From Mesorhizobium sp. (GTDB lineage Bacteria; Pseudomonadota; Alphaproteobacteria; Rhizobiales; Rhizobiaceae): a stretch of DNA of 15,203 nucleotides. Position numbers and translations under genes: made by a program. The notes below the pieces were generated by a model. The model saw only the letters and a program-made list of their open reading frames with translations, made no database searches and was not told the origin of the DNA. The stretch spans positions 1 through 15,203 of the forward strand of contig JAEKLU010000263.1 of the NCBI GenBank assembly GCA_019509685.1, in the 5' to 3' direction. How positions within the stretch are numbered: the first letter of the stretch is position 1; the number at the start of each line of letters is the position of its first letter. Below, one piece after another: positions 3,143-5,506 of this stretch.

Positions 3143-3775
3143 ATGAGCGACCAGACAAAAGACGAACGCGCGCCCGAGGAAATCGAAGCCACCCAGGCTT
3201 CCGGCGAACGTGCGGAAGGCGGCGTCGACGGCGACTATGAAGCGCTTGTGCGGCTGCTGAAGGAAAACGAGGAACTGAAGGACCGCGCGCTGCGCACTGC
3301 CGCGGAAATGGAAAATCTGCGCCGTCGCACCGCGCGCGACGTGCATGACGCGCGCAGCTACGCGGTGGCGAATTTCGCCCGCGACATGCTGTCGGTGTCG
3401 GACAATCTGCGCCGCGCGCTGGATGCCATACCGGCCGAGGCGAAGGCCGCGGGTGATGCCGGCTTCAAGGCGCTGATCGAGGGCGTCGATCTCACCGAAC
3501 GCGCCATGCTTTCGGCGCTGGAGCGCCACGGCGTCAAGAAGCTGACGCCGGAAGGCGAGAAGTTCGATCCGAACTTCCACCAGGCGATGTACGAAGTGCC
3601 CAATCCGGACGTTCCGGCCGGCACCGTCGTCCAGGTGGTGCAGCCCGGTTATTCGATCGGCGAGCGGGTGCTGCGTCCGGCCATGGTCGGCGTCGCCAAG
3701 GGCGGCCCGAAGGCTGCCGCCGAGGCCCCTGTCGAGCCGGGACCTGTGAACGAGCAGGCCGAGAAGGATGCGTGA
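3143..3775 (+). CDS. grpE: Nucleotide exchange factor GrpE
   Basis: GrpE is the cytoplasmic nucleotide exchange factor of DnaK: as a dimer it drives ADP release in the DnaK-DnaJ cycle. The 210-residue length is typical of alphaproteobacteria. Residues 1-32 are acidic and disordered-looking, about 33-95 form the long coiled-coil helix, and the C-terminal beta-wing domain covers about 135-188, with the family signature [14 protein letters not shown] (141-154) and [17 protein letters not shown] (168-184). An Ala/Pro/Glu-rich tail follows. The ATG is preceded by a modest GGGAAACGGCG site. In many relatives grpE follows the repressor gene hrcA; here the upstream neighbour is a divergent small gene, so hrcA is not adjacent. 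The stop codon ends one base before a heptamer repeat array. Confidence 0.97.
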
Positions 3776-3776
3776 G

Positions 3777-3825
3777 AGTGAGTAGCGAATAGGGAGTAGC
3801 GAATAGCGAATAGCGAATAGGGAGT
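3777..3825. repeat. Heptamer tandem array, left arm (grpE-TRIC spacer)
   Basis: Seven exact-length 7-bp units in a row: AGTGAGT, AGCGAAT, AGGGAGT, then AGCGAAT three times, then AGGGAGT. The array begins one base after the grpE stop codon. Its first 28 bases match the reverse complement of 3867-3894 at 26 of 28 positions, so the spacer can fold into a long hairpin. Confidence 0.9.
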
Positions 3826-3852
3826 CAGATACTTATCCACGGCTTCGTGCTA

Positions 3853-3894
3853 GTTCCCTACTCACTATTCGCTACTCACTATTCGCTACTCGCT
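3853..3894. repeat. Heptamer tandem array, right arm (grpE-TRIC spacer)
   Basis: Six units in the opposite orientation: a degenerate GTTCCCT, then ACTCACT, ATTCGCT, ACTCACT, ATTCGCT and ACTCGCT. The array ends five bases before the ATG of the TRIC gene and occupies the place where a ribosome binding site should be. The 27 bases between the arms (3826-3852) are not repetitive. Confidence 0.88.
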
Positions 3895-3899
3895 CACTC

Positions 3900-4532
3900 A
3901 TGAACCCCATCGACCTCCTCGACTATGCCGGCGTCGCCGTCTTCGCGGCGACGGGCGCGCTTGCCGCTTCGCGCAAAGAGCTCGACATTATCGGCTTCCT
4001 GTTCCTGGCCAGCGTCACCGGCATCGGCGGCGGAACGTTGCGCGACGTCATCCTCAACCTGCCGGTATTCTGGGTCGCCAACAGCGGCTATGTGCTGATC
4101 TGCGCCGTGGTGGCGGTGCTGGTCTTCTTCAGCGCGCACCGCTTCGAGTCCCGCTACAAGCTGCTGCTGTGGCTCGATGCCGTCGGGCTTGCCGCCTTCT
4201 CGGTGATGGGCGCGGCCAAGGGGTTGGCGATCACCGGCTCACCCGTCGTGTCGGTCGTCATGGGCGTGCTGACGGCGACCTTCGGCGGCATCTTGCGCGA
4301 CCTGCTCGCGGGCGAGCCGTCCGTGCTGCTGCGGCCCGAAATCTACGTCACGGCGGCGCTCGCCGGCGCCACCATCTTTACGCTTGGCGATCTAACCGGC
4401 CTGCCGGCGCTGCTTTCGAGCCTGCTAGGCTTCGCGGCCGCCTTCCTGGTGCGCGGCGGCGCGCTCAAATTCGGCTGGTCGTTTCCGGCGTATCGGAGTC
4501 GGCCGGGGCGACGGCCGGAGGATATTCCGTGA
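3900..4532 (+). CDS. TRIC/UPF0126 (YadS-like) family membrane protein, predicted cation channel
   Basis: This 210-residue protein is the usual size for the bacterial TRIC family (UPF0126, YadS/YicG-like), inner-membrane homologues of trimeric intracellular cation channels. It shows about seven hydrophobic segments and an internal duplication: GIGGGTLRDV at residues 41-50 is echoed by TFGGILRDLL at 127-136, as expected for the two three-helix repeats, each with a glycine-rich kink. Residues 195-210 form a basic, probably cytoplasmic tail. The N-terminus MNPIDLLDYAGVAVFAATG fits the family, so the ATG at 3900 should be right, yet no Shine-Dalgarno sequence precedes it; the upstream bases are heptamer repeats. 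Transport activity is known for a few relatives; the ion and role here are inferred. Both flanking spacers are repeat-filled, so the gene probably depends on transcription from grpE or on an undetected promoter. Confidence 0.9.
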   Translation: MNPIDLLDYAGVAVFAATGALAASRKELDIIGFLFLASVTGIGGGTLRDVILNLPVFWVANSGYVLICAVVAVLVFFSAHRFESRYKLLLWLDAVGLAAFSVMGAAKGLAITGSPVVSVVMGVLTATFGGILRDLLAGEPSVLLRPEIYVTAALAGATIFTLGDLTGLPALLSSLLGFAAAFLVRGGALKFGWSFPAYRSRPGRRPEDIP

Positions 4533-4535
4533 AGG

Positions 4536-4563
4536 AGCGAATAGCGAGTAGCGAATAGGGATT
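4536..4563. repeat. Heptamer tandem array, left arm (TRIC-olsB spacer)
   Basis: Four 7-bp units, AGCGAAT, AGCGAGT, AGCGAAT and AGGGATT, start three bases after the TRIC stop codon. They match the reverse complement of 4593-4620 at 25 of 28 positions. The GGGATT end also pairs with AATCCC inside the 29-base loop. Confidence 0.88.
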
Positions 4564-4592
4564 ACAGGGAACAAATCCCGCTACTTTCTTCT

Positions 4593-4620
4593 ATTCGCTA
4601 TTCGCTATTCGCTATTCGCT
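4593..4620. repeat. Heptamer tandem array, right arm, running into the olsB stop codon
   Basis: Four perfect copies of ATTCGCT stand in a row. On the minus strand the olsB stop codon TAG (4621-4619) is formed by the last olsB-side A plus the first bases of the array. Together with 4536-4563 it makes a 28-bp-arm hairpin between two convergent genes, which could act as a two-way terminator. Confidence 0.92.
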
Positions 4621-5506
4621 AAGCCGCGAAGCGCTGGCCTTCGCCGCCATAATAGTTGACGTAGCGGGCGCCGATCTCCTTGACCGGCATGACGACAAAG
4701 ACGTCGACGGTCGAGAATTCATGATCGATGACGCAGCCATCGCCGATGCGGGCGCCGACGCGCAGATAACCCTTGACCAGCGGCGGCATCGCGGCGATCG
4801 CCGCCTTAGCGTTCACCGCCTCGATCGGCATCAGGTCCATCGAACAGTAGCGGCTGGCAACGGCCCGGACATCCCAGGCGGAATCGGTGCGGCAGTGATG
4901 CGCGAGATAGGTCAAAGCCTCGGCATGGGCGGCCGGCACGATGCCGTGGAAGGACGCGCAGCCGGTCATGACGCCGATGCTGTAATGGTTGATGTAGGCC
5001 CAGATGCCTTGCCAGAGCGCCTCGATGGTGCGCTTGGAGCGGTATTCCTTGAGAACGCAGGAGCGGCCGAGCTCAAGGAAACGCTGGCCGGGGTGGCGCG
5101 CGATCAGCTTGGTCAGTTCGAACTCGCCCTCGGAATAGAAGCCGCCGGCCGCCGTGGCGATCTCCTGCCGCAGCAGCCGATAAGTGCCGACGATGCGGCG
5201 ATGCTCGGGGCCGGGCAGGGTGGTATCCAACACCAGAAGATGATCGCAAAGCGGATCGAAACGGTCGGCATCCCGCCGGTCCTGGGCCTGGAACAGATCT
5301 TTCCTCGCGCCGAGCTCGTCATAAAATACCCGGTAGCGCACTTCCTGGGCGGCGGCGATTTCGGCCTCGTTGCGGGCAAGCCGCACTTCGAGGTTGCCGA
5401 TACGGCCCAGCGGTGCACCGCTTGCGACAGCATCGGCGGTACGGGCGGCGAGCAGGGCGCCGCCAGCATTTGGCCGAGTGTCACATTCCGGCATGACTGT
5501 ATGCAC
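4619..5506 (-). CDS. olsB: L-ornithine N(alpha)-acyltransferase OlsB
   Basis: OlsB transfers a 3-hydroxyacyl group from acyl carrier protein to the alpha-amino group of ornithine, making lyso-ornithine lipid, the first step to phosphorus-free ornithine lipids. The 295-residue length equals that of rhizobial OlsB. It belongs to the GNAT-like acetyltransferase group: EVRYRVFYDELGA (55-67), RIVGTYRLLRQE (104-115), FELTKLIARHP (129-139), ELGRSCVLKEYRSKRTIEALW (in 145-165) and the distal PPLVKGYLRVGARIGDG (241-257) are characteristic. The start is GTG at 5506-5504, eight bases after AAGGAG; the in-frame ATG four codons later lacks a well-placed site. The partner acyltransferase olsA is not adjacent. 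A PHO-box-like sequence lies 51 bp upstream, agreeing with known phosphate-starvation induction in Sinorhizobium. The stop codon belongs to a heptamer repeat. Confidence 0.93.
   Translation of the reverse strand: MHTVMPECDTRPNAGGALLAARTADAVASGAPLGRIGNLEVRLARNEAEIAAAQEVRYRVFYDELGARKDLFQAQDRRDADRFDPLCDHLLVLDTTLPGPEHRRIVGTYRLLRQEIATAAGGFYSEGEFELTKLIARHPGQRFLELGRSCVLKEYRSKRTIEALWQGIWAYINHYSIGVMTGCASFHGIVPAAHAEALTYLAHHCRTDSAWDVRAVASRYCSMDLMPIEAVNAKAAIAAMPPLVKGYLRVGARIGDGCVIDHEFSTVDVFVVMPVKEIGARYVNYYGGEGQRFAA

Follow-up and report, generated by a model that had tools for sequence, protein, structure and literature searches.

Inverted heptamer arrays at gene borders in Mesorhizobium are probable ORF-less derivatives of an intervening-sequence-like insertion element

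The spacers on either side of a TRIC-family gene in Mesorhizobium sp. (GenBank JAEKLU010000263.1; the window, i.e. the whole stretch of 15,203 nt analysed) are both filled by inverted arrays of 7-nt repeats that fold into long hairpins. Both hairpins probably descend, without the ORF, from small insertion elements of a family that resembles ribosomal intervening sequences (IVSs), carries a PF05635 gene and is located at gene borders. The relevant features of the window are:

3143..3775, plus strand: grpE (PF01025; context); the stop codon ends at 3775 and hairpin 1 begins 1 base later
3777..3825, plus strand: left arm of hairpin 1, purine-rich, seven heptamers (AGTGAGT, AGCGAAT, AGGGAGT, AGCGAAT, AGCGAAT, AGCGAAT, AGGGAGT)
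3826..3852, strand not applicable: loop of hairpin 1, 27 nt, core GGCTTCGTG (read by eye)
3853..3894, minus strand: right arm of hairpin 1, six heptamers (repeat scan)
3900..4532, plus strand: TRIC-family/Gly_transporter gene (PF03458; context), flanked by both hairpins
4536..4563, plus strand: left arm of hairpin 2, four heptamers (repeat scan)
4564..4592, strand not applicable: loop of hairpin 2, 29 nt, with a short inner GGGATT/AATCCC stem (sequence and folding)
4593..4620, minus strand: right arm of hairpin 2, four identical AGCGAAT units, overlapping the olsB stop codon (repeat scan)
4619..5506, minus strand: olsB-like acyltransferase gene (PF13444; context), convergent to TRIC; the name olsB is that of the first-pass annotation

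The four arrays, the gaps between them and their placement relative to the ends of grpE, TRIC and olsB are as the first-pass annotation had described them; the olsB stop codon (4619–4621, minus strand) is shared with the last unit of hairpin 2. The best 28-bp arm pairs were likewise reproduced at 26/28 and 25/28 identical positions, with several registers tying in the first spacer, where the arms reach 42 nt at 88% complementarity. Two-unit matches with at most two mismatches number 17, against 0.59 expected and a maximum of 5 in 200 shuffles. RNA folding of the two spacers gives z-scores of -8.3 and -8.9, and none of 200 shuffles folds equally well. A long stem formed from terminal inverted repeats, a trait of IVSs of the 23S rRNA type, is present in both hairpins, and the copies in the window sit between protein genes, not within a 23S rRNA helix.

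Across Mesorhizobium relatives these hairpins persist while unit sequence and unit number change and the arms tend to agree. The TRIC protein of the window is 97% identical to its counterparts in Mesorhizobium sp. CA8 and CA14. The comparison covered the best 80 of 494 related stretches plus the window (81 loci), of which 76 upstream and 68 downstream spacers were delimited, the anchors missing 5 and 13, respectively; Rfam gave no match for one of the missed spacers (L041). All 76 upstream and 64 of the downstream spacers are at least 60 nt. The expectation that unit number would vary between strains is borne out by spacer lengths (window included) of 82–168 nt upstream (n=76) and 57–178 nt downstream (65/68); the remaining three downstream spacers (L073, L075, L076) are 21–22 nt and, by eye, empty sites. 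Units differ by strain (AGCGAAT/AGTGAGT, AGGCAGT, GGTGAAT, AGTAGTC, or octamers such as AGGGCAGT), and a repeat family with a fixed unit is rejected by this variation between strains at a single site.

The two halves of a spacer are reverse-complementary (score at least 12) in 60/76 upstream and 43/64 downstream cases, purines are more frequent in the left half in 75/76 and 64/64, and the called periods are 7 or 8 with four exceptions. Both halves have the same top heptamer in 17 upstream and 30 downstream spacers (permutation means 8.2 and 11.6), an agreement reached by 2 and 0 of 2,000 permutations, respectively; the permutation ignores strain kinship and overstates the significance because related strains are not independent. 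Only 2 of 61 strains have a common top heptamer in their upstream and downstream spacers; the sites therefore drift independently of each other. The loop core of the grpE/TRIC hairpin (GGCTTCGTG, 3826–3852) is kept, by eye, in most printed relatives while both arms change; it might contain a promoter or the core of an old element.

Runs of three AGYGART units were found in five of six genomes searched, with 49 matches in genome G005, and the same pattern read backwards gave no match in these six genomes. The 20 matched sites examined are intergenic or reach into predicted gene ends, some of the spacers being co-directional and others convergent, and have inverted arms by eye (weak at L151). 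Two of them, L140 and L149, enclose a small gene between their arms; L149 is the same site as L398 (below), its left arm being visible in L398. The lasting feature is the inverted 7- or 8-nt array and not AGCGAAT. Heptamers as a general property of Mesorhizobium spacers were also considered and rejected, a strict scan giving three period-7 arrays in 400 kb of G005 and none in 400 kb of G004. In G004, a spacer between convergent genes (G004:C1 ~1640438–1640525, in L115) is filled by an ORF-less inverted array of an unrelated 8-nt unit, GAATTGAG. Large intergenic palindromes of another family (CCCTCTGTCCTGCCGGACATCTCCCCC...) recur in both G005 and G004 (e.g. G005:C1 ~2140986–2141151); these lack a 7-nt period.

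The gene between the arms matches PF05635 (23S rRNA-intervening sequence protein, IVP) and TIGR02436 (four helix bundle protein), with 2gsc (XCC0516) and 2rld as solved relatives. In IVSs of the 23S rRNA type the IVP/S23p ORF is not present in every copy. PF05635 is carried by 48/61 Mesorhizobium genomes, 11/190 genomes sampled from the class (10 above cut-off) and 62/398 sampled from the phylum (58 above cut-off), both samples including some Mesorhizobium, and by 0/14 control genomes. By sequence score, IVP is only distantly similar to Avd, the accessory protein of DGRs (bAvd, 28.3 bits; NCBIfam Avd, 21.5 and 27 bits), falling below the Avd family cut-offs of 40 and 80 bits, so that movement of IVP elements by a reverse-transcriptase-linked route is a guess.

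Four orthologous borders, compared in hand-picked genomes, occur in three states: with IVP, hairpin-only and empty. Between nuoC and nuoD (n=25), 17 borders are empty, three carry IVP, one is of another kind and four were not delimited, one of which (L276) was flagged as IVP in a separate scan. Between an acyl-CoA dehydrogenase gene and mmsB (n=25), 11 are empty, two bear arrays without an intact IVP (L310, a hairpin; L308, an array plus a truncated IVP start), four are other and eight not delimited; IVP with AGGCAGT arms is found here in other strains. The glutamine-synthetase-like/MPYQ border (n=30) yielded six IVP, eight hairpin-only, five empty, four other and seven not delimited, and the ATP-grasp/alpha-E border (n=28) four IVP, six called hairpin, nine empty, three other and six not delimited; L391, among those called hairpin at the latter, is 502 nt and retains IVP-like sequence. 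Several of the undelimited rows look empty or array-bearing when read directly. At empty borders the spacer is short (10, 15, 21 nt or 26–33 nt, depending on the site) and holds nothing resembling an array; at occupied borders it exceeds 100 nt. Neither a transposase nor a target-site duplication was found by eye at the loci read.

AGCGAAT occurs on both IVP-bearing and ORF-less copies of this one genus. IVP-bearing L398, L403 and L407 have AGCGAAT/AGCGAGT arms like those of the window; hairpin-only L354, L359, L362 and L369 have the AGCGAAT unit, and the same border in L353 and L355 carries IVP with octamer arms. In the short copy L392, what remains of an IVP element is the right arm with its flank (52 nt, 90%), which fits a deletion derivative. 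Neither the window itself nor its two borders in the 80 relatives contain an IVP ORF, and the link of the window to IVP elements therefore rests on shared unit and layout; its hairpins may be ancient remnants, or may have arrived without the gene.

Association of IVP genes with such arrays extends over several phyla. IVP loci were collected (100, of which 90 usable) and their flanks scanned for arrays, defined by a period of 7 or 8 (or 14–16); since the loci returned were the best-scoring ones, 20 mostly lower-scoring places in the phylum and 14 of 35 plasmid records were added. Arrays are present on at least one side of 81/90 IVP loci compared with 38/1,037 control genes of Mesorhizobium, and on both sides of 56/90 compared with 3/1,037. 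The two flanks match as inverted repeats at 62/90 loci, compared with 9/1,037 controls and 87/1,500 pairings of flanks from different sites, and RNA folding joins them by at least 14 pairs at 73/90 compared with 60/223 control genes. Counted per distinct site (n=46), 40 have an array, 25 have arrays on both sides and 29 have inverted flanks. For the first 59 loci, an array of whatever period turned up in 4/295 shuffled flanks and an inverted match in 0/295; adjacent upstream DNA contained an array in 5/59. By group, an array on either side was found at 28/28 loci in Mesorhizobium, 10/11 in the class, 17/20 in the phylum (a group that includes a few more borders of the Mesorhizobium type), 13/14 on plasmids and 13/17 among the lower-scoring phylum loci; in these last 17, arrays on both sides (4) and inverted flanks (5) make for a weaker layout than at top-scoring loci. 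Nine of the 90 fall below the array threshold, and of these L327, L335, L345 and L346 also have no inverted match.

From group to group the units bear no relation to one another (GGCTTAA, TCAGCCR, GCAGGTT, GAGTGAG), and the layout of IVP between arrays recurs in other Pseudomonadota and on cyanobacterial and Gemmatimonadota plasmids, with GGGAACA in Nostoc, AGGTGAC in Anabaena and octamers in Gemmatirosa. Ten of the IVP genes on the 12 annotated plasmid records (of 14) are co-directional with both neighbours. The Pseudanabaena galeata plasmid pPg_01 (L331) is an exception to the inverted layout, with direct arrays (AAAAGCT/AAAAGCC) on both sides of IVP. In one rRNA record, from Azospirillum lipoferum (L329), an IVP ORF with heptamer arms lies within 23S rRNA, which ties the intergenic IVP elements to classical IVSs. 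A stop codon in each unit, giving translational stops in all frames, was considered on the strength of the Mesorhizobium units and rejected as a general rule, only 35/52 upstream lag-7 arrays at IVP loci having a sense-strand stop.

Three plasmid-borne IVP genes, in Anabaena sp. 90 (L320), Picosynechococcus PCC 7003 (L328) and P. galeata (L331), lie inside CRISPR operons, twice between cas6 and cas4 and once between cas10 and cmr3; 7-nt arrays flank at least two of the three. They may be passengers there. A 2023 survey of CRISPR-linked genes names ‘23S rRNA IVP’ in a figure legend (PMC10910872).

According to passages of PMC4990558, the 23S rRNA IVS of Coxiella burnetii has a 28-bp stem and three GACAGAT heptamers before its ORF, the heptamer number varies between strains and the ORF is deleted in one strain. 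It thus resembles the present elements in protein family, terminal inverted repeats, tandem heptamers and ORF loss. However, it lies inside 23S rRNA, with heptamers noted in one species in those passages, whereas the elements described here are at borders of protein genes, occur in many groups with unrelated units and are mostly ORF-less in Mesorhizobium.

Heptamers of other bacteria have been described in different terms. Passages of PMC4692102 report GGGAATC and GGGGA(C/T)T heptamers in Xanthomonas and Nostoc that are intergenic, tandem and near gene ends, differ in length between relatives and make up inverted convergent pairs, 70 in one Xanthomonas genome and 75 in another; these share their location and inverted pairing with the Mesorhizobium arrays but are read there as G-quadruplex repeats, and ‘helix bundle’ and ‘S23’ have no occurrence in the text. 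A link to Xanthomonas through GGGAATC was rejected, as there is only a one-sided array beside the IVP gene in GGGAATC-rich G513. In that genome (209 matches to three GGGAATC units, 5 and 204 per contig strand) IVP follows an accB-like gene (L317, L333), with a GGGATTC-type array upstream only. TAACTGA repeats of Beggiatoaceae, as presented in parts of PMC4679880, also form intergenic heptamer arrays adjoining gene starts and ends but, unlike the present arrays, are direct, of fixed unit and almost never inverted (one case); that text has no IVP link and no occurrence of ‘S23’ or ‘helix bundle’. Paired ‘global regulator binding sites’ of Geobacter metallireducens (passages of PMC2700814) are tandem 7- or 8-nt repeats, several classes of which are opposite-strand pairs; compared by description, they share this layout but are interpreted as regulator sites, and those passages do not mention S23 or helix bundle. 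Among the matches listed, with most subscription papers and preprints outside reach, a general link between IVP genes and heptamer arrays was not found, the only instance being the Coxiella paper on one rRNA IVS. What goes beyond the known rRNA IVS is an element of similar build found outside rRNA, bearing heptamer arms and, in many copies, no ORF.

An element of this family consists of a 7- or 8-nt repeat array, one four-helix-bundle IVP gene (PF05635) and the same kind of array in reverse complement. It lies at gene borders, as a rule immediately 3′ of a stop codon and, within operons, co-directional. The coexistence of occupied and empty sites suggests that it is mobile, and IVP, alone or with a host enzyme, may help insertion. 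Hairpin-only copies could have arisen by loss of the ORF or have been moved in trans. Once transcribed, the long stem would be cut by RNase III, by analogy with rRNA IVSs (passages of PMC4990558). Slippage could alter unit number, and template switching in the hairpin could rewrite one arm from the other, so that the unit would drift while the arms remain complementary; we infer that arm agreement combined with unit drift is compatible with such slippage plus arm copying.

Drift of unit and number at fixed sites would also suit evolution in place, by which slippage builds arrays at tolerant gene ends, quasi-palindrome correction makes the two sides complementary and IVP merely lands there. The IVP state was never found at the sites of the window in 80 relatives, as this would have it, and a slippage origin of 7-nt repeats is discussed in passages of PMC4692102. 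We nevertheless regard this as unlikely: empty spacers contain no array remnant, occupied spacers are abruptly longer (more than 100 nt), arrays are rare elsewhere (both among control genes and in the strict scan of G005 and G004), and the enclosed gene is of one family.

Intrinsic terminators consist of a GC-rich stem and then a T-run, and no T-run follows either hairpin of the window on either strand, which argues against the terminator role that the first-pass annotation had offered; a terminator consensus scan made no call at these hairpins, a weak test as it covers loops of 3–8 nt only. Functional RNA hairpins more broadly (terminators, 3′-end stabilisers or attenuators), kept by structural selection with IVP secondary, would account for strong folding and for arms that stay complementary as the unit changes, but many strains have no hairpin at all at the four tested borders, and hairpins are found in co-directional and convergent spacers alike; together with the missing T-run this makes such a role very improbable. 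A transposase-driven family of the classical MITE or REP/REPIN type is scarcely credible, for the copies, although small, palindromic, numerous and mostly ORF-less, have no fixed end sequence, their unit differs between copies, strains and sites, and the enclosed gene is PF05635 and not a transposase. Of the first-pass interpretation, the part that is supported is an element spreading at gene borders, given matches in several genomes, inverted pairs at gene ends and both occupied and empty orthologous borders; the terminator part is not.

Derivation of the window hairpins from IVS-like elements with PF05635 also raises a wider reading, which we offer tentatively, as one that may well prove wrong. 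Inverted 7/8-nt arrays with IVP might form a single cross-phylum class of selfish element (‘mRNA IVS’), the ORF-less copies of which would be a main source of unexplained intergenic heptamers in bacteria, as seen in Mesorhizobium and with Xanthomonas, Nostoc, Geobacter and others as candidates; activity would reside in the arms, with the repeats made, and one arm copied from the other, by IVP or a partner polymerase.

Selfish elements of the IVS type are familiar mainly from inside ribosomal RNA genes, and we know of no established mechanism of mobility for rRNA IVSs. The heptamer repeats of several bacterial groups have so far been given separate, unproven roles. Where annotation places a ‘four helix bundle protein’ in an operon (nuo, cas, glutamine-synthetase-like), the gene may be riding along without belonging to that pathway. 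Linking heptamer repeats with IVSs makes both testable, with a gene to delete, target RNAs for RNase III and borders for comparison between strains.
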